From Deinococcales bacterium (lineage in GTDB: Bacteria; Deinococcota; Deinococci; Deinococcales; JAAFIG01): a stretch of 64,000 bases of DNA. Positions 3,327 to 58,314 of this stretch are shown one piece after another (position 1 is the first letter of the stretch; each line of letters opens with the position of its first letter). The position numbers and the translations under genes are program-made. The notes beneath the pieces are model-generated. The model was not told the DNA's origin. It did not search any database and worked only from the letters and a program-made list of their open reading frames with translations. The stretch is from positions 124,001 to 188,000 of the forward strand of contig JAAFIG010000003.1 in NCBI GenBank assembly GCA_013298595.1, in the 5' to 3' direction.

Positions 3327-3519
3327 ATCGTTCCAAATGGCATTGTTTTGTTTTTCTATTCAACTGTCAAGGATCACGCACCTCGCACCAGACGCGGTTT
3401 CATTGTACAACTTTTTTGGTTTCGCAAATCTATTGGGTTTTGCTAGGGCAAAGTCATTCTCGAGCCTTCAAAAACATTTGTACAAAACTTTGTCATTTGC
3501 ATTCAAAGCATTGGTTTAA
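3327..3519 (-). promoter_or_regulatory. Candidate CRISPR leader
   Basis: This 193-nt stretch between the predicted leader-proximal repeat and the corA stop has no credible gene and is rich in T/A runs (for example around 3345-3360 and 3410-3420). Its position follows from the minus-strand orientation of the repeats. I could not pick out a specific promoter. Confidence 0.4.
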
Positions 3520-4518
3520 TTACCACCATTTACGCCATTTGAAATACGCGCCAAACAAAGCAGCTGCTAATCCAAACATTGCCCAAGCAAAAGTGTACCC
3601 CCAAGGTTGCTCGAGTTCTGGCATAAATTTGTAATTCATTCCCCAGACACCTGCTAGAAAGGTTAGGGGTAAGAAGATACTGCTCATGGTGGTGAGGGTT
3701 TTCATCACTTCGTTCATACGGTTACTTTGTACGCTCAGGTGCACATCGAGTAAGCTCGAGAGGACATCTCGGCTCGAGTCTAATCCGTCGTAAATACGAG
3801 TTAAGTGGTCGCCTACATCGCGTAAGTACATGGCGGCATTGGGTTCTAAGGCTGTGACGTGTCTGGAGAATTGGGCGATGGCTTCGCGTGAACCGCTGAC
3901 TAAACGCCGTGCCGAAATCATGGTGTGTTTAATGGCAAAGACTTCAGTAAAAAATTGACTGGTGTTGACCACTCGAGGTGAGAATACGCGTTCTTCGAGT
4001 TCGTCGGTGCGTAATTCGAGTTCGTCTAAGAAGGTAAAGAATGTATCTGCGCCTTTATCAAGTAAAGCGTAGAGTACGTCTACGACTTTGATGTTGCTGC
4101 GTTTTTCAAATTCGTTCCAAACACCTTCGAGGTACGTGACAGGTTCATTGCGAATGGTTAGTAATGTCTCGAGTTCAGGAAACCAGAAAATACTGATTCG
4201 TTCGGTGCGGTCGGTCACATCTTCAGGTTCGGCTAGGGTGCGAAATATCAGGAATAAATGCTCGTTATAGGCTTCAAATTTACTCCAATGCCCTATTTCT
4301 AAGGCATCTTCGAGGGCTAAGGCATTTAAGGTAAAATGGGTTTTAAGTTGCTCGAGGTCTGCTTTTGATGGTGTTTCAGCATCTATCCAAACCCGTTTTT
4401 GACGAATGCTTTGAATATCGTGACACTGCTCGAGGCATTTGATGCGAATGCCTGGATGCTCGAGCAGTTGGGGGTGTTTAGAAGTCATAAGTTTGGGAAC
4501 TGTAGTGGTGTGCCTCAC
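3520..4518 (-). CDS. corA: CorA-type Mg2+/Co2+ transporter
   Basis: 332 residues with a long soluble N-terminal domain and two C-terminal membrane helices separated by WGMNY, the GMN selectivity signature of CorA channels, followed by an acidic periplasmic loop (KFMPELEQ) and a basic tail (KWRKWW). It imports divalent cations, mainly magnesium, as a pentamer. The gene starts 10 nt after the dnaJ stop in the same direction and is probably co-transcribed. The start is uncertain: GTG at 4518 or ATG at 4488; neither has a clear Shine-Dalgarno. Confidence 0.9.
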   Translation of the reverse strand: MRHTTTVPKLMTSKHPQLLEHPGIRIKCLEQCHDIQSIRQKRVWIDAETPSKADLEQLKTHFTLNALALEDALEIGHWSKFEAYNEHLFLIFRTLAEPEDVTDRTERISIFWFPELETLLTIRNEPVTYLEGVWNEFEKRSNIKVVDVLYALLDKGADTFFTFLDELELRTDELEERVFSPRVVNTSQFFTEVFAIKHTMISARRLVSGSREAIAQFSRHVTALEPNAAMYLRDVGDHLTRIYDGLDSSRDVLSSLLDVHLSVQSNRMNEVMKTLTTMSSIFLPLTFLAGVWGMNYKFMPELEQPWGYTFAWAMFGLAAALFGAYFKWRKWW

Positions 4519-14831: not shown

Positions 14832-16325
14832 ATGAAAGTATTTGTTGTTGCAGGAATTTTGGTAACGTTTGGTGCACTCGCAACGTTTGCTCAAGAGCGA
14901 ACCTTAAATGTGGGTTTGGATGCCGACCCACCAAATCTTGATCCAGCCTTATCGAGTGCATTTGTCGATCGGCAAGTGCAAAACCAAATCTATGACAAGC
15001 TTGTGGATATCAATCCAAAACTCAAAATTATTCCAATGTTAGCAACGGCTTGGAAAGTCAGTGATTTAGGTACAACCTATACCTTTACTTTGCGTCCAAA
15101 TATCAAATTTCATGATGGCACACCATTTGATGCCAATGTGGTCAAATTCAATTTGGAACGCTATATGACACTGGATACCTCGAGACGTAAGGGCGAATTG
15201 GCTTCGATTAAAGAAATCAAAGTTCTTAGCCCAACCAGCATTCAATTAAACCTCAAATTTCCATTTGCGCCGTTACTGGCTGTTTTATCTGATCGTTCAG
15301 GGATGATGGTTTCGCCTGCGGCTGTGGCAAAATTTGGTAAGGACTTCACCAATAACCCAGTAGGTACTGGACCATTTAAGTTTGTTGAACGTCGCCGTCA
15401 AGACCGAATTATTCTCGAGAATACCAACACCTATTGGGATACGGCTAATCGCCCTAATTTTGATAAATTGGTTTATCGCCCATTCCCAGATGGTGATGTT
15501 CGGGCTGCTAATTTATTGTCAGGTGCCATTCAGGTCATGACCCCAATAGACCCTAAAGACTTAAAAGCTATTGCTGAAAATACCCGTACAGAATTGGCTT
15601 CAATTGCTGGTTTGGGTTTCCAAGGTATTCCATTAAATACCACCAAACCACCATTTAATAATAAAGCCCTACGTCAGGCTTTTGCTGCCACACTAGACCG
15701 CGAAGCCATTGACCGTGTGGTTTTCCAAGGTAGTGTCACACCTGCGGTCACACCATTTCCTCCTGGATCACCAGCTTATACAAAATTCTTTCAAGTCAAT
15801 CCACCAAATTTAGAATTAGCAAAAAAGAAACTCGCCGAAGGGAACCAACCCAACGGATTTAGTTTCACCATGCTGATTGCCACAGGTACTGTCAACGCAC
15901 AACTGGCACAACTCTACCAAGCCTTTGCTAAAACCGCGAATATTGACATGAAAATCGAACAAATCGAGTTTGGTACTTTACTGGCTCGAGCTGATAAAAA
16001 AGATTTCGATGCGCTTGCTTTAGGGTGGAGCGGACGACCTGACCCAGATGGCAACATCTTTGATTTCTTTGTGACAGGCGGTGTCAGTAATTATTCAGGT
16101 TATAGCAATCCTCGAGTTGATAAGTTGTTACAACTTGCTCGGCAAACCCGCGATATTGTGATTCGCCGCGATATCTACGAAGATGCGCTCGAGAATATTG
16201 TCAGTGATGCGTCGTACCCAATTACGTATTTCCAAAAAGTTAATATTGGTAAGCTCAAAACCGTTGATAATTTGCCACTCAACCCCGATGGTATTATGCG
16301 TTTTAAATCCGTTAAACTCAATTAA
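14832..16325 (+). CDS. ABC transporter extracellular solute-binding protein, family 5 (peptide/nickel type)
   Basis: 497 residues with a signal peptide (cleavage near ATFAQ) and the family 5 signature beginning LNVGLDADPPNLDPALSS, followed by YTFTLRPNIKFHDGTPFDA. It binds oligopeptides or similar ligands outside the inner membrane and delivers them to the two permeases immediately downstream. AAGGGGG lies just before ATG. No lipobox is present, so it is soluble in the periplasm. The ATPase subunits (DppD/F) are not in the window. Confidence 0.92.
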   Translation: MKVFVVAGILVTFGALATFAQERTLNVGLDADPPNLDPALSSAFVDRQVQNQIYDKLVDINPKLKIIPMLATAWKVSDLGTTYTFTLRPNIKFHDGTPFDANVVKFNLERYMTLDTSRRKGELASIKEIKVLSPTSIQLNLKFPFAPLLAVLSDRSGMMVSPAAVAKFGKDFTNNPVGTGPFKFVERRRQDRIILENTNTYWDTANRPNFDKLVYRPFPDGDVRAANLLSGAIQVMTPIDPKDLKAIAENTRTELASIAGLGFQGIPLNTTKPPFNNKALRQAFAATLDREAIDRVVFQGSVTPAVTPFPPGSPAYTKFFQVNPPNLELAKKKLAEGNQPNGFSFTMLIATGTVNAQLAQLYQAFAKTANIDMKIEQIEFGTLLARADKKDFDALALGWSGRPDPDGNIFDFFVTGGVSNYSGYSNPRVDKLLQLARQTRDIVIRRDIYEDALENIVSDASYPITYFQKVNIGKLKTVDNLPLNPDGIMRFKSVKLN

Positions 16326-16338
16326 GTTTTGTAAAACC

Positions 16339-16365
16339 GCAGGCTCGAGAAATTCTCGAGCCTGC
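16339..16365 (+). repeat. Perfect hairpin built from two CTCGAG copies, between binding-protein and permease genes
   Basis: Arms GCAGGCTCGAGAA (16339-16351) and its complement (16353-16365) are separated by one base. There is no U-tract. Its position after the binding-protein stop and before the permease matches stabilising or attenuating hairpins that give binding proteins higher expression in ABC operons. Confidence 0.7.
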
Positions 16366-16393
16366 CGATTATTGACTGAGAAAGGTTGTGGTT

Positions 16394-17338
16394 ATGCTGA
16401 CGTTTGCTTTGCGTCGCTTGTTATATGCCATACCGACATTACTGATTGTGACAATCATGGTGTTTTCCTTGGTGCGGATATTACCCGGTAATCCTGCGTT
16501 GTTGATGCTTGGCGAGGAAGCTTCACCTGAACTTGTGGCTGCCTTAAACCGTGACCTTGGCTTAGACAAACCGCTTTATGAACAGTATTTCAGTTGGATT
16601 ACCAAAGTTTTTCAGGGTAACTTAGGCGAATCGTTACGCAATAACGAATCCATTACAAAAGTGGTACTCGAGAAATTACCAACAACCCTCGAGTTGGCTT
16701 TTCTTGCCATGCTGGTAGCGCTTGTACTGGCAATTCCTGCTGGGATTTTCACAGCTGTAAAACGTGGTGGGGCAGCCGATAGCGCGGTGACTGTACTGGC
16801 GTTATCAGGGATTTCCTTGCCGAATTTTTTTCTGGGTGTGTTACTGATTTATTTTTTCTCGGTTAGACTTGGTTGGATTCCACCTTCGGGTTATGTCACA
16901 CCCGCCGAAAACCTTGGGCAAAATTTATTACTGATGCTGATGCCTGCCGTGACCTTAGGCACAGGTACCGCTGGGGTTTTAACGCGGTTTTTGCGTGGTT
17001 CGATGCTTGAAGTACTGACCCAAGACTTTGTTCGCACAGCTCGAGCCAAAGGTGTTGGCGCGGCTGGTGTGATATTTGGGCATGCTTTACGCAATGCCTT
17101 TTTACCAATTCTCACTATTTTTGGTTTACAACTCAGTGCGTTGTTATCCGGAGCTGTGATTACCGAGCAAATATTTTCGATTCCAGGTTTTGGTAGATTA
17201 CTAGTCGAAGCTGTTGCAACCCGTGACTATCCATTGTTACAAGGTGTTGTATTACTCAGTAGTATTGCCATTTTTATTGTCAGTTTTCTGGTGGATATCC
17301 TGTATGCAAGCGTTGACCCTCGGATTCGTTACCAATGA
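16394..17338 (+). CDS. ABC transporter permease, DppB/OppB type
   Basis: 314 residues from ATG at 16394 (an in-frame GTG lies 6 nt upstream; AAAGG at 16381-16385 serves as Shine-Dalgarno). N-terminal FALRRLLYAIPTLLIVT is the classical DppB opening, and the EAA-type cytoplasmic loop appears as VRTARAKGVGAAGVIFGHAL (about 215). Six membrane helices are expected. It forms the channel with the next gene product. The stop overlaps the next start as ATGA. Confidence 0.92.
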   Translation: MLTFALRRLLYAIPTLLIVTIMVFSLVRILPGNPALLMLGEEASPELVAALNRDLGLDKPLYEQYFSWITKVFQGNLGESLRNNESITKVVLEKLPTTLELAFLAMLVALVLAIPAGIFTAVKRGGAADSAVTVLALSGISLPNFFLGVLLIYFFSVRLGWIPPSGYVTPAENLGQNLLLMLMPAVTLGTGTAGVLTRFLRGSMLEVLTQDFVRTARAKGVGAAGVIFGHALRNAFLPILTIFGLQLSALLSGAVITEQIFSIPGFGRLLVEAVATRDYPLLQGVVLLSSIAIFIVSFLVDILYASVDPRIRYQ

Positions 17339-18195
17339 AAACTTCCACACCAACCCCATCAACGCGCAATAAAGCCTTGGAGCGCTTTATACGCAATCGT
17401 CTGGCTGTAACAGGCTTAATCCTGATTGGTGTATTTGTCTTGATTGCACTTTTTGCCCAAGTCATCGCACCCTTTGACCCAATCCAACAAAATTATGAAC
17501 AATTATTACAACCGCCCTCGAGTAGGCATTGGTTTGGAACAGATAACCTCGGACGAGATGTGCTTTCCAGAGTCATTTATGGCACTCGAGTTTCGCTCAG
17601 TGCAGGTATTATTGCCGTCAGTTTAGCGGCTTTGATTGGTGTGCTACTCGGTTTAAGTGCTGGGTTTTTTCGTGGTTTTGTAGACGAAATTATCATGCGA
17701 ATCATAGATGCCATGCTGGCGTTTCCTTTTTTGGTACTGGCAATTACCTTAGCAGCTATCCTTGGACCGAGTTTGCAAAACGCCATGCTTGCCATTACTG
17801 TTGTTTCGATTCCTGTTTTTGCCAGAGTCACTCGAGGACAAGTACTTTCCGAACGTGAACGCGATTATGTACAAGCCGCCACAGCTTTAGGTGCCAATGA
17901 TGCTCGGATTATGTTGCAACATGTGCTGCCCAATATTGCTGGACCTATTATTATTCAATCTACACTGTCTATTGCAGGGGCTATTTTGGCAGAATCAAGT
18001 TTAAGTTTTCTTGGTTTAGGTGTGCAACCACCAACCCCAAGTTGGGGCGAAATGCTCAATGTGGCTCGAGGTTATTTGCGAGATGCGCCTTGGACAGCCA
18101 TTGCTCCTGGTATCCTGATTTTTATAGCTGTACTGGCATTTAATTTACTGGGTGATGGTTTACGCGATGCCCTTGATCCACGCCAACAATCCTAA
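17335..18195 (+). CDS. ABC transporter permease, DppC/OppC type
   Basis: 286 residues. FIRNRLAVTGLILIGVFVLI forms the first helix, followed by the family motif WFGTDNLGRDVLSRVIYGTR and the EAA loop RERDYVQAATALGANDARI. It pairs with the upstream permease (4-nt overlap, translational coupling). The 3' end overlaps the convergent PfkB kinase gene by 4 nt. With no ATPase genes following, the transporter must borrow ATPases encoded elsewhere. Confidence 0.92.
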   Translation: MKTSTPTPSTRNKALERFIRNRLAVTGLILIGVFVLIALFAQVIAPFDPIQQNYEQLLQPPSSRHWFGTDNLGRDVLSRVIYGTRVSLSAGIIAVSLAALIGVLLGLSAGFFRGFVDEIIMRIIDAMLAFPFLVLAITLAAILGPSLQNAMLAITVVSIPVFARVTRGQVLSERERDYVQAATALGANDARIMLQHVLPNIAGPIIIQSTLSIAGAILAESSLSFLGLGVQPPTPSWGEMLNVARGYLRDAPWTAIAPGILIFIAVLAFNLLGDGLRDALDPRQQS

Positions 18196-27622: not shown

Positions 27623-27857
27623 CTCGTCCGTAAAATCTGCGGACGAGAATATATTCCCGCGTTACCACCGCTTTTCTCGAGTTGACTCGAGCGCTCATAT
27701 GCGCTGTGATGGGCGCTCCCAGAGGATTCTACTGGCTGTGTAGCCTTCTTTCCTCATGCTCGTGGGTGACTTTCCTGCGTTCGCTTTCCTAGTGTTCCTT
27801 TCAGCCAAGGGATCACTTCTCTGTTGGTGCGCGGCGCAGTACTTTCCCAGTCGTTGC
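27623..27857 (-). ncRNA. T-box riboswitch leader
   Basis: On the minus strand the leader shows GGGAAAGTACTG with the AGUA element (near 27838), CAGAGAAG and GGCTGAAAG of the Stem I distal region (27800-27825), a GAGGA/TCCTC stem II (27723-27756) and the T-box antiterminator GCGGTGGTAACGCGGG (about 27655-27672; one mismatch to the usual ACCGCG). It ends with a hairpin CTCGTCCG/CGGACGAG (27623-27630 and 27640-27647). The UGGU bulge would pair with an ACCA tRNA end. GTC in GGAAAGTCACC (about 27768) is a candidate valine specifier. The following tail is GTGTTTGTGTTT, not a clean U-run, so control may be translational. Confidence 0.85.
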
Positions 27858-27863
27858 CCCTCG

Positions 27864-27891: not shown

Positions 27892-27985
27892 GCTGGCAAG
27901 GTGGCTTAGTATTTCTCGAGCTTAGGTAGAAAAGTGAAGTTTTTGTACTCGGTACATTACTTTATTCATATTGTCAATTACAGCT

Positions 27986-28030
27986 TTCTTACAAATTTCT
28001 TACACGTAGAATTTAAGTTTTTTGTAAGAA
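27986..28030. promoter_or_regulatory. Direct and inverted TTTCTTACA sites upstream of the small peptide gene
   Basis: TTTCTTACA occurs twice with 11-bp periodicity (27985-28004), and TTTGTAAGAA (28021-28030) is the exact inverse of TTCTTACAAA (27986-27995). Eleven-base direct repeats of TTACA type are typical of OmpR/PhoB-family response regulator sites. Confidence 0.5.
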
Positions 28031-28079
28031 CAATTGTGCATAATCATCCCATATCCAGTTTTATCGGGGGGTAAGCACT

Positions 28080-28259
28080 ATGTATAAAAAATTATTGGTG
28101 TTGGTCGGATTAGTTGCTCTTTTACTTGGTACACCAGCAATGGCGTGGGGATTCTCGGATTTTTTGTCTGAACCAGTTGTAGGTCGGGATACACCACCCC
28201 CGCCGCCGCCACCCCAACCACAAGGCAAATCAGTATGGTGTGGCGGCGGCAACTGCTAA
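28080..28259 (+). CDS. 59-residue secreted Pro-rich peptide ending in WCGGGNC
   Basis: ATG at 28080 follows a GGGGGG Shine-Dalgarno 8 nt upstream; the stop is TAA at 28257-28259. The N-terminus is a clear signal peptide (MYKKLLVLVGLVALLLG, cleavage near TPAMA-WG). The mature part has seven consecutive prolines and ends KSVWCGGGNC, giving two cysteines four residues apart, suited to a small disulfide ring. No homologue family is recognised. It lies 70 nt upstream of a cytosolic TPR-GGDEF gene with a terminator between them. Possible roles are a signalling peptide, a microcin-like product or a structural peptide. Confidence 0.7.
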   Translation: MYKKLLVLVGLVALLLGTPAMAWGFSDFLSEPVVGRDTPPPPPPPQPQGKSVWCGGGNC

Positions 28260-28286
28260 GCTCTTGGTTGGTTCACCAAGTTATGG

Positions 28287-28315
28287 TAGGGTTTGGATAG
28301 CGAATCCAAACCCTA
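28287..28315 (+). terminator. Rho-independent terminator after the small peptide gene
   Basis: A perfect 12-bp stem TAGGGTTTGGAT/ATCCAAACCCTA with loop AGCGA is followed by TTCTATTT. The U-tract is imperfect, so readthrough into the TPR-GGDEF gene is possible. Confidence 0.8.
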
Positions 28316-28329
28316 TTCTATTTAAAACT

Positions 28330-30003
28330 ATGAGCGAAGTTGCCCAAATTGCATTGCAAAAAGTTCAACAAATTCAAGACATGAATGACTTTGATCAAGT
28401 ATTTTCTTCGATCAGTCAGACCATGTCCGAAGAATCCAGCGAGACAATGTTTGCGTTCTCGTTGGGATTATTTGAAATAGCTAAAAGCGGCAACCGAAAA
28501 ATTCAAGCAATTGGGTTTTATTGGTGCGGGCGCAGTTACGTTAAAACATCAAAAACTCGGGAAGCCTTAGAGAGTTTTTACGCTGCTTTTGATATCAGTA
28601 CAGAAATCGAGTATTTTTCGTATGCCATTGGCATGTTAGTAGAAATAGGTACAATTTATCAAGACCTTGGTGATTATGAAGATGCTTTACGCACTTTTGA
28701 GGAAGCACTCGAGTTATCTATTGTTCATCAACGTAATGCAGGAAGAATAGTTTGTTTAGCCAATCTCAGTGATACACAACGATTTCTTGGGCACTATCAA
28801 AGAGCTACCGAATATGCCAAAGAGGCTTTGCAAATAGCAAGAGACCTGGGCTGGACACGTCATGAAGCCAATGCCTTAATCTGTCTTAGTGAAGCATTAA
28901 TAGCTATTGGAAAAGAACAACTGGATATTAAGAAGTTCCATGAGGCTTTATCTCATTTTAACCAAGCCCATGATTTTTTGCTCAAGGCAAACAATGATCA
29001 TGGACTTTATAAGTTATACTTGTGTCGTTCTAAGGCACTTTGTGAACTCGAGCAATACGATGAAGCTATTGCCGCTGCCGAGAAAGCCTTAGAATATGCT
29101 AAGCACTTTGGTGCTCTGGAAATCCAAGGTATTTGTGAGTTGCAATTTGGGGCTATTTTCATTGCCCAACGACAATTTGAGGCGGCTTTGAAACATTTAG
29201 ATGCTGCGAAAAAATTCTTTGAAGTCAATACTGCTAAAAAGTTTTTATCCGATGTTCACAAAGCGTATTACCAAGTGTTTCGTGGGCGCTCCGAATTTGA
29301 AGCTGCACTCGAGCATTTTGAATTGTTTTATAAGTTTGAATCTTTGGTGCGAACCGAGAATGTCGAGCGGCGTTCTCAGGCAATTGCTTTAAAGATCGAG
29401 CGGGAAAATGTGCGCCGTGAAGCCTTGTGGTATCAGCAGCGTTCCGAGGAACTCAGTGCGCTTAATGAGCAGCTACAAGCTCAAACAGTGCAACTTGATC
29501 AGCAAGCCAAAGAGGATTCTTTAACGGGTACTGCTAATCGGCGAACACTCGAGGATTTTTCAAGGCAGGCATTTCTCGAGGCTGTTGAAGGGCGTTTAAA
29601 ATTGTGTTTTGTGTTGTTGGATATTGATCATTTTAAATTGGTCAATGATCGGTTTTTGCATGCCACTGGCGATCAGGTGATTCGGCGCATTGCTGCGATT
29701 TTGCAAGAACAATGTCGGGGACATGATTTGGTGGCTCGGTATGGTGGTGAGGAATTTGCTTTGGTCTTGCCTGGGTTGTCTGGGGTAGCTGCGTACCGTT
29801 TTTGTGAACGTATCCGCGAAATCATTGAAACAGAGGATTGGTCTGTAATTCACACAGATTTACGTGTGACCATCAGCCTTGGTTGGTGCGATGATACTTC
29901 GCTTGGGAGCCATGAAAAAATGTTAGATGCCGCTGACCGAGCCTTGTATGGCGCTAAGAATGCTGGGCGCAATTGCACTCGTCCAAGAGTCCAAGGAGCA
30001 TAA
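28330..30003 (+). CDS. TPR-repeat diguanylate cyclase
   Basis: 557 residues from ATG at 28330, which follows the terminator stem by 14 nt; the earlier in-frame ATG at 28240 overlaps the peptide gene. No signal peptide or membrane helix is seen, so it is cytosolic. About six TPR-like helical pairs span residues 40-350 (for example YQDLGDYEDALRTFEEALEL), followed by a coiled coil and a GGDEF domain with DSLTGTANRR and the active-site GGEEF (about 483). RGHD five residues before GGEEF is an intact inhibitory I-site. It makes c-di-GMP from two GTP. TPR domains bind peptides or proteins, and the adjacent secreted peptide gene is a candidate ligand source. Confidence 0.9.
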   Translation: MSEVAQIALQKVQQIQDMNDFDQVFSSISQTMSEESSETMFAFSLGLFEIAKSGNRKIQAIGFYWCGRSYVKTSKTREALESFYAAFDISTEIEYFSYAIGMLVEIGTIYQDLGDYEDALRTFEEALELSIVHQRNAGRIVCLANLSDTQRFLGHYQRATEYAKEALQIARDLGWTRHEANALICLSEALIAIGKEQLDIKKFHEALSHFNQAHDFLLKANNDHGLYKLYLCRSKALCELEQYDEAIAAAEKALEYAKHFGALEIQGICELQFGAIFIAQRQFEAALKHLDAAKKFFEVNTAKKFLSDVHKAYYQVFRGRSEFEAALEHFELFYKFESLVRTENVERRSQAIALKIERENVRREALWYQQRSEELSALNEQLQAQTVQLDQQAKEDSLTGTANRRTLEDFSRQAFLEAVEGRLKLCFVLLDIDHFKLVNDRFLHATGDQVIRRIAAILQEQCRGHDLVARYGGEEFALVLPGLSGVAAYRFCERIREIIETEDWSVIHTDLRVTISLGWCDDTSLGSHEKMLDAADRALYGAKNAGRNCTRPRVQGA

Positions 30004-31099: not shown

Positions 31100-32776
31100 A
31101 TGATGACCGCTGTTGCTCCAGACCTCTCAAGCCTTGTGCGAGTTGGTAATGCCAAGGATGCTGTGCTGCTCGCCCCAGAAGTTTCTCCGAACGATTTAGC
31201 TCGTCATGCAATTGGGTTGGCAAACTCGAGTGGTGGGACTTTGTTGGTTGGTGTGCGTAATGGTCGGATTTCAGGAGCCGAAGATTTACATCCTTTACAA
31301 GTCACCCATGCACTTTGGGAATTAACGGGTGGTAAATTAACGGTGCATTGTGCCAATACCACCCTCGAGGGTAAGCCTATTTTGGTGGTTTCTGTGCCTC
31401 GTAGCCCTGTTGTGCTTGCTACCCCAACAGGTGAAGTGCTGCTTTGGAATGGCACCAATCTCGAGCCTTTAGCGGCTTTAGCGCTCGACCCTGCTCCATT
31501 ACCTGATTTTAGTGCCAGTGTGCCGCCAACTTCGAGCCTTGCCGATATAGACCCGCTCGAGGTGCATCGGTTGCGAGCTGTGCTTGAGTCTCGGCGTGGG
31601 GCTGCGTTGGCAGAATTACCTGATATTGATTTGTTACGAGCACTGGGTTTACTCGAGGGTGAACAACCAAATTTAGCTGGTATTTTATTGTGTGGCACGA
31701 ATAAAGCTTTAAAGCGGTATGCGCCTCAAGCCGAGCTAGATTATTATCATCATGGTGCTGGTGATATGGAATTTGAATTCCGTGAAACCATTCACCGCCC
31801 GATTCCTGCGATGCTCGAGCGTTTACGCGAATTGGTACAAGCTCGCAATAAATACAAAACACTGCACGTTGGCTTGTTTCAAATCGAGGTCTGGGATTTT
31901 GATGAAGTTGTCTACCGCGAGGCTATTCTCAATGCTTTAGTGCATCGTGATTACACCTCGAGGGATACTGTGCAGTTGCATCATTACCCCAATAAACTCG
32001 AGATTGCCAATCCTGGTGGGTTTAGCGGTGGTATCAATGTCGAAAATATTTTGCGTCATCAACCAAAGCGCCGCAATCCAACCCTCGCCGAGGCATTGGC
32101 GCGGCTGGGGTATATCGAACGGGCTGGTATTGGTGTGGATCGGATGTACCGCTTGCTTTTACGTCATGGCAAAGAACCACCTGAGTACACTGCTTACCCT
32201 GACAGTGTTCAACTGAGTATTCATAACCCCGAATTCGACGAAGCTTTCACCCGATTTGTGGCTCGTAAACAAGAAGAAATGGGTGCTTTTAGCTTAGATG
32301 CTCTAATTGTACTGTCTATCCTTAAACGCGAAATCCAAGCTGATAAACAACAATTAGCTGCTGCCTTGCAACTCCCACTCGAGCAAACCAGCCGCACGTT
32401 GCGCCCACTCGAGGAAGCCAATTTATTGCAACGCGAAGGCGAACTCTGGCATTTGTCGGATGAAGCATTGGCTGCTCTTGGTAAACACCGCGCTCGAGCA
32501 TTATCTGCACCTAGCCCACGGATTCAATTACCTAGGGTCATGCCCACCAGTTTAACACCAATGAATAAAAAAGCTGATGTCAGCCGCACCGAAAAACGCC
32601 AAACAGTTTTAGAAATTGCTAAAACCCTTGGCAGTGTGGCTAACCGCGATGTGCGTCAAGCGCTGGGCTTAAATTTGTCGCAAGCCAGTCATTTGCTTCG
32701 CACTATGCACCAAGCAGCTTTGCTTGAGAAAACAGGTGAAAGCCCTCGAGATACGCGTTATGTGATACCAAATTAA
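31100..32776 (+). CDS. AlbA_2/Schlafen-like DNA-binding regulator with HATPase-like and winged-helix regions
   Basis: 558 residues. Residues 25-130 form an AlbA_2 (Schlafen-type) domain with IGLANSSGGTLLVGVRNG. Residues 190-400 match the ATP-dependent helicase/HATPase_c_4-like module with YREAILNALVHRDY and IANPGGFSGGI. Two winged-helix segments follow (about 405-455 and 500-555). Such proteins act as transcription regulators or, in other contexts, as parts of stress and defence loci. TACGAT lies 7 nt before ATG. A strong bidirectional terminator follows. Confidence 0.82.
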   Translation: MMTAVAPDLSSLVRVGNAKDAVLLAPEVSPNDLARHAIGLANSSGGTLLVGVRNGRISGAEDLHPLQVTHALWELTGGKLTVHCANTTLEGKPILVVSVPRSPVVLATPTGEVLLWNGTNLEPLAALALDPAPLPDFSASVPPTSSLADIDPLEVHRLRAVLESRRGAALAELPDIDLLRALGLLEGEQPNLAGILLCGTNKALKRYAPQAELDYYHHGAGDMEFEFRETIHRPIPAMLERLRELVQARNKYKTLHVGLFQIEVWDFDEVVYREAILNALVHRDYTSRDTVQLHHYPNKLEIANPGGFSGGINVENILRHQPKRRNPTLAEALARLGYIERAGIGVDRMYRLLLRHGKEPPEYTAYPDSVQLSIHNPEFDEAFTRFVARKQEEMGAFSLDALIVLSILKREIQADKQQLAAALQLPLEQTSRTLRPLEEANLLQREGELWHLSDEALAALGKHRARALSAPSPRIQLPRVMPTSLTPMNKKADVSRTEKRQTVLEIAKTLGSVANRDVRQALGLNLSQASHLLRTMHQAALLEKTGESPRDTRYVIPN

Positions 32777-56556: not shown

Positions 56557-58059
56557 TTAGTGCTTAAAGTGTCTCGAGCCAGTAAAAATCATGCTGATGC
56601 CAAGCTCATCGCAGGCAGCAATCACTTCAGCATCGCGTTTAGCACCACCTGGTTGCAAGATTGCCATCACACCAACACTGGCAGCTAAGCGCACCACATC
56701 ATCGAAAGGAAAAAATGCTTCAGATGCCAACACCGATCCTTTGGCTTTTTCTCCTGCATTACCAATGGCACGTTCAGCAGCCCAAATTCTACTGACCGCT
56801 CCTGCCCCCAAACCAACAGTAACCGCATTTTTGACCAGCACCACATTATTACTACGAGCATGTTTGGTGATCGCAAACGCAAACTCGAGGTCTTGCCATT
56901 CTTGTGGGGTTGGTTGGCGTTTGGTTACCACTTCTGGGCAAAGATCAGACCACACTCGAGTATCGCGGTTTTGTACCAGAAAACCACCACTGATGGCTTT
57001 GTACTCGAGATTCGAGTATGCACTGTTACCTGCTTTGAGAACGCGCAAATCTGGTTTCTTTGCTGCAAACCACTCAAGTGCATCTGCACTGATTTCAGGG
57101 GCGATGAGAACCTCGAGGAACGTGCCTTTGGTACTGGTAGCAACTTCAAGTGTTACTGGGCGGTTCAAAGCGACCACACCACCGAAAACCGATAGCATAT
57201 CGGCATCTCGAGCACGTTCCCATGCCAGTTGAGCGGTATCTGCCAACGCGACACCACACGGGTTAGCATGTTTGACTGCCACACAAGCAGGACTCGAGAA
57301 TTCAGAAACCAATAACCACGCTGCGTCGACATCGGCGTAATTGTTAAAGCCCATCTCTTTACCCGATAACACTTGAGCATCGAGCACCGCGCCTTGTTCT
57401 GCTCCAAAACGGTACAGAGCCGCTTGCTGATGCGGATTCTCGCCATAACGCAAAGATTTAATACGGCTTAACTCGAGTGGTTGCTGAACATTAAACGATT
57501 CACTCGAGAGATACCCACTGATGGCTGCATCGTAACTGCTGGTATGAGCAAAAGCTTTACGTGCTAAACCTTGCCTAAATTCAAGACTAGCGGTTTTGAT
57601 ATGCTCGAGCACACCAGCATAATCGGCTGGGTCAACCACAATCAGCACATTGGCAAAATTCTTGGCACTGGCTCGAATCATCGCAGGACCACCAATGTCA
57701 ATATTTTCGATGGCATCATCAAAAGTCACATTGGCTTTAGCAATGGTTTCCCGAAATGGATATAAATTGACACACACCAAATCAAAGCGTTCAATTCCCA
57801 TCGTCTCGAGTGTGGCGTTATGCTCTGGCGTATTCTTAGCCAAAATGCCTGCATGGATTTTAGGATGCAAGGTCTTTACTCGTCCCTCGAGAATTTCAGG
57901 GAAACCTGTCACATCCGAAATATAGGTCACAGCTAAACCTGCATCCTTTAGGGTTTGGAACGTACCACCTGTCGAAACAAGACTAAAACCCTGCCCAATC
58001 AAACCAGACGCAAATTCAACCAAACCGCTTTTATCACTGACACTCAGTAAGGCTCTCAT
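56557..58059 (-). CDS. purH: Bifunctional AICAR formyltransferase/IMP cyclohydrolase
   Basis: 500 residues from ATG at 58059 (a TTG at 58077 lies within the Shine-Dalgarno and is rejected). GAGGAG is 10 nt upstream. The N-terminal IMP cyclohydrolase/MGS domain starts ALLSVSDKSGLVEFA with STGGTF, and the C-terminal AICAR transformylase includes LRYGENPHQQAALYR and KHANPCGVA. It completes purine synthesis to IMP. A ZTP riboswitch in its leader links expression to ZMP/ZTP, the substrate that accumulates when 10-formyl-THF is short. Confidence 0.96.
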   Translation of the reverse strand: MRALLSVSDKSGLVEFASGLIGQGFSLVSTGGTFQTLKDAGLAVTYISDVTGFPEILEGRVKTLHPKIHAGILAKNTPEHNATLETMGIERFDLVCVNLYPFRETIAKANVTFDDAIENIDIGGPAMIRASAKNFANVLIVVDPADYAGVLEHIKTASLEFRQGLARKAFAHTSSYDAAISGYLSSESFNVQQPLELSRIKSLRYGENPHQQAALYRFGAEQGAVLDAQVLSGKEMGFNNYADVDAAWLLVSEFSSPACVAVKHANPCGVALADTAQLAWERARDADMLSVFGGVVALNRPVTLEVATSTKGTFLEVLIAPEISADALEWFAAKKPDLRVLKAGNSAYSNLEYKAISGGFLVQNRDTRVWSDLCPEVVTKRQPTPQEWQDLEFAFAITKHARSNNVVLVKNAVTVGLGAGAVSRIWAAERAIGNAGEKAKGSVLASEAFFPFDDVVRLAASVGVMAILQPGGAKRDAEVIAACDELGISMIFTGSRHFKH

Positions 58060-58104
58060 TAGCAAATCACTCCTCAAGAACCAGCCGAACCAAACAGCTA
58101 ATCC

Positions 58105-58182
58105 GATAGCGACCCAGGCGAGCGATCTATTGAGCGTTGCAGCTTCCCCACGGGCTTTCCGTGTGAATTCGCCAGTTACTAC
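58105..58182 (-). ncRNA. ZTP (pfl) riboswitch controlling purH
   Basis: Minus strand: AACTGGCG (near 58177), a CACGG/CCGTG hairpin followed by GGGGAAGC (58142-58163), and CGCCTGGGTCGC (58109-58120) match the two conserved halves of the ZTP aptamer. Downstream there is no U-run before the GAGGAG of purH, so translational control is more likely. The aptamer lies 46 nt upstream of the purH start codon. Confidence 0.88.
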
Positions 58183-58314
58183 AACTTAGCTAGTCTACTC
58201 GAGACTCAGCAGTACGCTTGACCCACAACTCAAAAATTTCCTCACCTTTTCCCTGCGTCCTTTATCTTTTCTCCCACATCCAATCCACCCACTCGCCACG
58301 TACACCCCAGTGAA

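Follow-up and report, generated by a model that had tools for sequence, protein, structure and literature searches.

A gene for a small, putatively secreted peptide paired with a TPR-GGDEF gene in Deinococcales: a possible peptide signal setting c-di-GMP

Introduction

Can a small secreted peptide serve as the signal of a neighbouring c-di-GMP enzyme in a diderm bacterium? The question is raised by a locus of a Deinococcales bacterium (genome G000, 4.58 Mb in 68 contigs), lying in a stretch of 64,000 nucleotides of contig C23 that was analysed as a whole and is called the window here. To our knowledge, the signals of TPR-GGDEF proteins are mostly unknown. A survey of intracellular peptide sensing by TPR receptors deals with Firmicutes and the viruses that infect them (PMC10075063), and a sequence-only reading of the window had compared the locus with the RRNPP quorum systems of these bacteria. 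In the open-licence PMC literature, covered mostly by titles and the beginnings of abstracts, we found no paper reporting such a pair of peptide and TPR-GGDEF genes.

Results

A small, putatively secreted peptide with a conserved cysteine-bearing end

The first gene of the pair (28080-28259, forward strand) starts with ATG behind a Shine-Dalgarno-like run of six G (28066-28071) and encodes 59 residues ending in SVWCGGGNC, much as the sequence-only reading had described it; in order, the peptide reads MYKKLLVLVGLVALLLGTPAMA, then WGFSDFLSEPVVGRDTPPPPPPPQPQGKSVWCGGGNC. Residues 1-22 (28080-28145) form a predicted signal sequence, with the cleavage site placed by eye at AMA. When 41 genomes were searched, a homologue came up as a weak, full-length tblastn match (E 0.146) in G003, a MAG of the same family and another genus, where a secreted ORF of 60 aa ends in VVMCGGGSC. 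Under our own heuristic, the hydrophobic cores score 3.3 in the window peptide and 2.74 in that of G003, the latter with its predicted cleavage site at ISA; both genes carry a Shine-Dalgarno sequence, predicted cleavage leaves 37 residues in both cases, and the precursor lengths fall within the 10-100 aa of RRNPP propeptides. What the two peptides have kept is their signal-sequence character and the C-terminal K-x-V-x-C-G-G-G-x-C, of which the CGGGxC-stop part occupies 28239-28259. The earlier description of a Cys/Pro peptide needs a small correction, in that the proline-rich stretch is not conserved. No gene for a maturation enzyme adjoins the peptide gene.

Small ORFs of this kind are rare. 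Strict criteria (ATG, Shine-Dalgarno sequence, K/R in the n-region, hydrophobic core of at least 2.7, 28-90 aa, outside genes) left one ORF in the 228,459 bases of the window's contig, the window peptide, and one in the 139,923 bases of contig G003:C54, the G003 peptide. Since these two contigs were picked for the finding, the unbiased figures are those of G000:C1 and G003:C34, with no such ORF in 160 kb and 118 kb, respectively. Besides the two peptides, none was present in 646 kb from four contigs of the two genomes.

The adjoining TPR-GGDEF protein

The second gene (28330-30003, forward strand) encodes 557 aa from an ATG at 28330; the mechanically called ORF begins upstream, at a GTG at 28240, and overlaps the peptide gene. 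The protein matches PF00990 over cut-off (121.2 bits) and carries GGEEF at 472-476, with the I-site motif RGHD (R463-x-x-D466) five residues before it, which places it among the GGDEF diguanylate cyclases. The earlier view of a TPR protein fused to an active-looking cyclase with an I-site, 70 nt from the peptide gene, is therefore borne out by these sequence signatures; the I-site motif is missing from the G003 orthologue. TPR_12, TPR_1, TPR_2 and TPR_8 also score over cut-off. In the AlphaFold2 model (mean pLDDT 90.4), TPR helices span about 36-319, and a single helix of 72 residues (323-394) joins them to the GGDEF domain (395-552). The neighbours of this gene are the peptide gene and one whose 189-aa product matches no Pfam family.

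The 70-nt gap between the two genes holds two hairpins, at 28263-28280 and at 28285-28317, both on the forward strand; folded as a piece of 73 nt, it has a minimum free energy of -25.6 kcal/mol (z -4.78). The second (14 bp, 33 nt) resembles an attenuator or a leaky terminator: the T-run behind it is poor and it is absent from the list of a consensus terminator scan, so that the leaky-looking terminator named by the sequence-only reading is a fair description. A hairpin after the peptide gene would allow peptide and cyclase to be made at different levels.

The pair is conserved in a second genus

In G003, the peptide gene lies 194 nt ahead of a gene for a TPR-GGDEF protein of 561 aa, and direct adjacency of propeptide and receptor genes, as in RRNPP systems, is therefore seen in both genomes. 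The same locus as on G003:C54 is carried by JANXTZ010000011.1 (MAG: Deinococcales bacterium isolate 339R_metabat_219). The two receptors share 36% identity over 544 residues, the GGDEF domain (53%) and the long helix (49%) being better conserved than the TPR part (26%). In an alignment of 27 TPR-GGDEF proteins, each is the best match of the other, and the two group as a clade (support 100/99).

The surroundings of the pair have changed. When 198 ORFs of the window's contig were compared with 117 of G003:C54, no other adjacent gene pair was common to both, and matches were scattered and single. The gene 3' of the pair in G003 has its counterpart in G000 on a different contig (C5); for the gene 3' of the pair in G000, none of the genomes G001, G002 and G003 has a counterpart. 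Since the pair is conserved and its surroundings are not, peptide and cyclase have stayed together amid a reshuffled neighbourhood. It is mainly this retention, read from gene order, that suggests a functional tie; conservation in relatives, which had been proposed as a check, is thus found in a second genus.

Inherited neighbours without any functional tie, kept together by chance and with the upstream repeats described below serving one gene only, would also give a pair of this kind. The small sample leaves room for such an account, the pair being known from two genomes, one of them a MAG, and GGDEF paralogues are many (34 matches in the window's genome). Yet C23 and C54 have kept no other pair of neighbours in common, the receptors have diverged to the identity given above, and the same kind of repeat stands upstream of both peptide genes; we regard chance retention as quite improbable.

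Searches for the peptide and the receptor elsewhere

A DNA pattern for CGGGxC-stop, run on 111 Deinococcota genomes, matched in 25 of them. Of the 31 places listed, 30 were made into loci, and those in plus orientation, together with two in minus orientation with a real stop, were translated; among these translated matches, the motif ended a signal-peptide ORF in two genomes, G000 and G003, both times at the pair locus. A profile built from the two peptides matched 108 of the 111 genomes at E<=3, with low-scoring partial matches beyond G000 and G003, and no further signal-peptide ORF with the Cys motif was found in the nine loci read. Plasmids gave no match to the peptide, and a scan of genome contigs returned five loci, with the known G003 record as the sole orthologue. 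A peptide gene lacking the TPR-GGDEF neighbour, which the sequence-only reading had named as counter-evidence to the link, was sought in the 111 genomes and not found.

The receptor follows the same distribution. With a profile made from the two receptors of the pair, which themselves score 1092 and 1096 bits, no orthologue was found in two other genomes of the family (91-94% complete; best match about 223 bits), so that two genomes of the family have the peptide gene as well as the receptor gene, and two have neither. None of the 11 other TPR-GGDEF genes inspected in two genomes of the window's genus has such a peptide upstream, and neither does L069, the nearest receptor relative outside the clade.

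Small ORFs were also sought around other c-di-GMP genes. A loose scan covered 72 loci, and its strict repeat covered 68 loci, representing 64 different genes for GGDEF or HD-GYP proteins, some of them without TPRs. The strict scan found four ORFs: the two peptides of the pair, one at a TPR-HD-GYP gene of G003 (L145), and one in G052 (L068). Loose candidates were dropped for lying mostly inside a gene (L081), for a TTG start (L097), for three nested and unconvincing starts (L098), or for a GTG start (L168, the same place as L228 below). Short hydrophobic ORFs on a loose list, upstream of a few paralogues, did not pass the later loose-settings scan of the 72 loci.

Transcribed away from a TPR-GGDEF gene, the L068 ORF (G052:C122, 886-1017, minus strand) encodes a Pro-rich secreted product of 43 aa and has no other ORF of its kind around it in 95 kb of G052, which belongs to another family; it is absent beside the 68%-identical TPR-GGDEF orthologue in G048, of the same genus as G052, and is therefore a lead only. 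A further 60 TPR-rich loci (405 kb, other settings) gave five matches. Two of these (L170, L177) were rejected as unconvincing signal peptides. A third (L228, G004:C7:6000-14500, about 3400-3900) is a tandem of two nearly identical secreted ORFs, about 75-80 aa long, in which LPSNDGWITIE(GSQTV) is repeated three times per ORF. The tandem is flanked by a gene for a TPR-BTAD regulator and one with an HD-GYP motif; by sequence, it looks like a multi-copy peptide precursor. The last two (L190, 1880-2647; L208, 4487-5434), from two genera and near BTAD-NB-ARC-TPR regulators, are tiny lipopeptide genes (end WN-x-SQWN-x-ATWK) ahead of genes for other secreted proteins, collagen-like in L208. They indicate that a tiny secreted ORF may have a role other than signalling.

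Phased CTTACA repeats and a second candidate module

Upstream of the window peptide, three CTTACA-type hexamers stand in 11-nt phase (ATTACA-N5-CTTACA-N5-CTTACA, 27977-28004, forward strand) in an operator-like array, followed by an inverted copy (CTTACA-N5-CTTAAA, 28012-28028, minus strand); no convincing consensus sigma-70 promoter was found before the peptide gene. CTTACA-N5-CTTACA also lies upstream of the G003 peptide gene, on the other strand. As the motif was spotted by comparing these two upstream regions, and its rarity and other loci were found later, its presence before both peptides is not an independent test. The exact form occurs at 6, 3, 1 and 2 sites in four genomes of the family (12 in total, G000 having the 6), against 0, 0, 0 and 1 for a reversed control pattern. 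With one mismatch allowed, five sites are found in the 368 kb of C23 and C54, all outside ORFs of at least 100 aa and four of them beside the two peptide genes. Allowing two mismatches gives 4 sites in the window against 5.54 expected, so that weight is carried only by the exact and one-mismatch forms, which cluster upstream of the peptide.

Genes for TPR-GGDEF or TPR-HD-GYP proteins, or an operon with one, border five of the 12 exact sites: these five are at the two pairs, at a TPR-HD-GYP locus on G003:C4, and at the front of a subtilase/TPR-GGDEF operon in G000 and G001. The remaining seven are at other genes. The G003:C4 site is the only other exact copy in that genome and lies (at 6951 of L120, 5038-7131) between a gene for a TPR-HD-GYP phosphodiesterase and a divergent signal-peptide ORF of 40 aa (MKKLSRMIIVALGLVFFVSGIASARLEIVSKAPPAAASAR), with 16 residues after the predicted cleavage site. 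This ORF has a near-consensus promoter (TTGACA-N17-TAATAT), with the repeat just downstream of it, and a terminator-like hairpin behind it. It may be part of a second peptide circuit; no peptide gene adjoins the orthologous TPR-HD-GYP gene of G000 (46% protein identity), and this module therefore rests on one genome.

An S8 peptidase gene directly precedes a TPR-GGDEF gene in four genomes: L121 (3978-7041, G000:C6), L122 (912-3952, G001:C2), and L278 and L279 on Deinococcus plasmids. In G000 and G001, the subtilase, which bears a lipobox, and the TPR-GGDEF protein are encoded in the apparent operon fronted by the CTTACA repeat. The plasmid genes, from D. deserti and D. taeanensis, share the TPR-GGDEF architecture of the window protein, and the placement behind an S8 peptidase gene with the one paralogue in its genome; they differ from the window pair in having no small secreted ORF in our scan and in an identity to the window protein of about 30%.

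The B. subtilis PhoP box consists of two hexamers with a 5-nt spacer, as does our repeat. The same layout is found in the WalR/VicR boxes, TGTWAH-N5-TGTWAH (PMC4168254), to which the repeat, read on the other strand as TGTAAG-N5-TGTAAG, comes close. It departs from that consensus, however, in its sixth base, a G that the consensus excludes, and in the three phased copies plus an inverted one of the window.

Several of these observations would suit a peptide that is no ligand at all. It might instead be a small product secreted to serve in the envelope or matrix, or as an antimicrobial, with the neighbour cyclase under common regulation or in control of the same surface functions, and neither uptake nor binding would take place. 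A mature part with cysteines and rich in Pro, Ser and Ala would fit such a role, as would a hairpin of its own after the peptide gene in both genomes; other CTTACA sites precede unrelated genes, some of them for secreted proteins, and lipopeptide genes stand ahead of collagen-like and related secreted proteins elsewhere. Against this, the pairing is conserved with a single TPR-GGDEF clade while the rest of the neighbourhood changed, and receptor systems are usually laid out in this way, with a secreted peptide next to a TPR protein. We consider the co-regulated, non-ligand account somewhat unlikely.

The modelled TPR fold is compatible with peptide binding but no evidence of it

The TPR model superposes on NprR (5dbk; Z 25.8, 308 aligned, rmsd 4.4) and on Rap-CSF (4gyo; Z 25.0, 312 aligned, rmsd 4.5). 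The paralogue L005, which has no peptide, reaches Z 27.1-28.7 against Rap/NprR, equal to or better than the window protein; the fold is thus no evidence of peptide binding, and we rejected it as proof. As modelled, it permits peptide binding without singling it out.

By sequence, the protein belongs to none of the RRNPP receptor subfamilies (Rap, NprR, PlcR, Rgg, AimR): Pfam and NCBIfam return generic TPR and GGDEF families plus unrelated TPR-protein models below cut-off, and no RRNPP chain is among the best 60 of 61 phmmer matches (E 1e-5). TPRs are present, as RRNPP receptors require, in both the Pfam matches and the model; at 557 aa and with its GGDEF fusion, the protein lies outside the receptor length of about 250-500 aa (PMC10075063).

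Importer genes

A binding protein (SBP_bac_5, 14832-16325) and two permeases (16388-18195) of Opp/Dpp type are encoded on the forward strand at 14832-18195, 10 kb from the peptide gene, and could form a peptide importer. The importer claimed by the sequence-only reading is thereby present in these three parts but not in its ATPase, which is not among the window genes scanned; two oligo_HPY (OppD/F-type) ATPases are encoded on contig C14 of the genome. These genes may be linked to the peptide in function. A peptide of 37 residues with two cysteines exceeds the usual Opp cargo size unless it is trimmed.

No importer would be needed if the TPR domain bound the pre-peptide before export, or when stalled, so that the cyclase would read Sec export or envelope redox (through CxxxxC) instead of cell density. 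The adjacency of the genes and the conserved cysteines would fit such an inside-out sensor. Nothing points to cytosolic retention of the peptide, however, and we know of no precedent for a sensor of this kind, which we judge very improbable.

Other features of the window

A T-box leader (27636-27863, minus strand; RF00230, 86.6 bits against a gathering threshold of 93, E 1e-18) reads into genes for a two-NUDIX protein, a 354-aa protein with HELAH, and valS (named by eye), with a GUC (Val) triplet at what we take to be the specifier position. A ZMP/ZTP riboswitch (58105-58189, minus strand; RF01750, 46.9 bits) lies ahead of a 506-aa ORF (56557-58077). The protein encoded at 31100-32776 is AlbA_2/Schlafen-like, with RecG-like C-terminal and wHTH domains, and gives weak PADLOC matches to Argonaute-associated proteins. 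CTCGAG is the commonest hexamer of the window (425 copies in 64 kb against 12.9 expected from base composition) and is far over-represented in the G003 and G052 contigs too, as a highly iterated palindrome.

Discussion

The pair described here has much in common with Rap-Phr, NprR-NprX and PlcR-PapR (PMC10075063): a small ORF with a predicted Sec-type signal lies directly beside the gene of a cytosolic TPR protein, the modelled TPR part can be superposed on Rap and NprR, and Opp parts are encoded in the genome. It differs in that the receptor output is a diguanylate cyclase and not an HTH or Rap-type domain, in that the host belongs to the Deinococcota and not to the Firmicutes, in the two cysteines of the conserved peptide C-terminus, and in TPR families that are generic by sequence. 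Because receptor length and sequence family depart from those of the known systems, we call the pair RRNPP-like, not RRNPP. The layout proposed by the sequence-only reading stands as to the gene arrangement, which is conserved; that interpretation is partly supported, and what was a guess now has a conserved gene pair behind it.

The conserved pair suggests, without proving, a peptide signal setting c-di-GMP. We infer an RRNPP-like circuit from peptide to TPR protein, to which we give roughly an even chance. One promoter region with the 11-nt phased CTTACA repeats would drive the peptide gene, and read-through of the hairpin would yield less receptor. The Sec-exported peptide would be the signal or its precursor, with the message in the C-terminal part around K-x-V-x-C-G-G-G-x-C; after export and trimming, an Opp-type importer would bring it back into the cell, where the TPR superhelix of the adjoining protein would bind it. 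Binding may then shift the pose of the long helix between the TPR and GGDEF parts and so switch c-di-GMP synthesis, by activation or by repression.

By analogy, a precedent may be named for each step. Rap proteins bind imported peptides and then change shape (PMC3601965), and the TPR domain of Vibrio vulnificus RcbB represses its own GGDEF cyclase until a partner relieves it (PMC12282931). RcbB resembles the window protein in its N-terminal TPR and C-terminal GGDEF parts and in that the product of a neighbouring gene relieves the repression. That partner, however, is itself a TPR protein and not a secreted peptide as here, and RcbAB is reported from gamma- and beta-proteobacteria (PMC12282931); no neighbouring TPR partner gene (rcbA) is present at the window locus.

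A wider reading, which we hold to be unlikely, is that in this lineage of Deinococcota a set of peptide-to-TPR circuits has the c-di-GMP pool as its output, with one peptide acting on a TPR-GGDEF protein, another on a TPR-HD-GYP protein, and a common operator. The subtilase, secreted and encoded together with a further TPR-GGDEF protein in an operon under the same operator, would then be a possible maturation protease. If true, such a set would be a diderm counterpart of Rap-Phr in which population density is written straight into a second messenger. The circuit of the pair itself, if true, would provide a ligand for one member of the large TPR-GGDEF class, and a conserved pair in a diderm phylum with a c-di-GMP enzyme as the receptor output would widen both fields.
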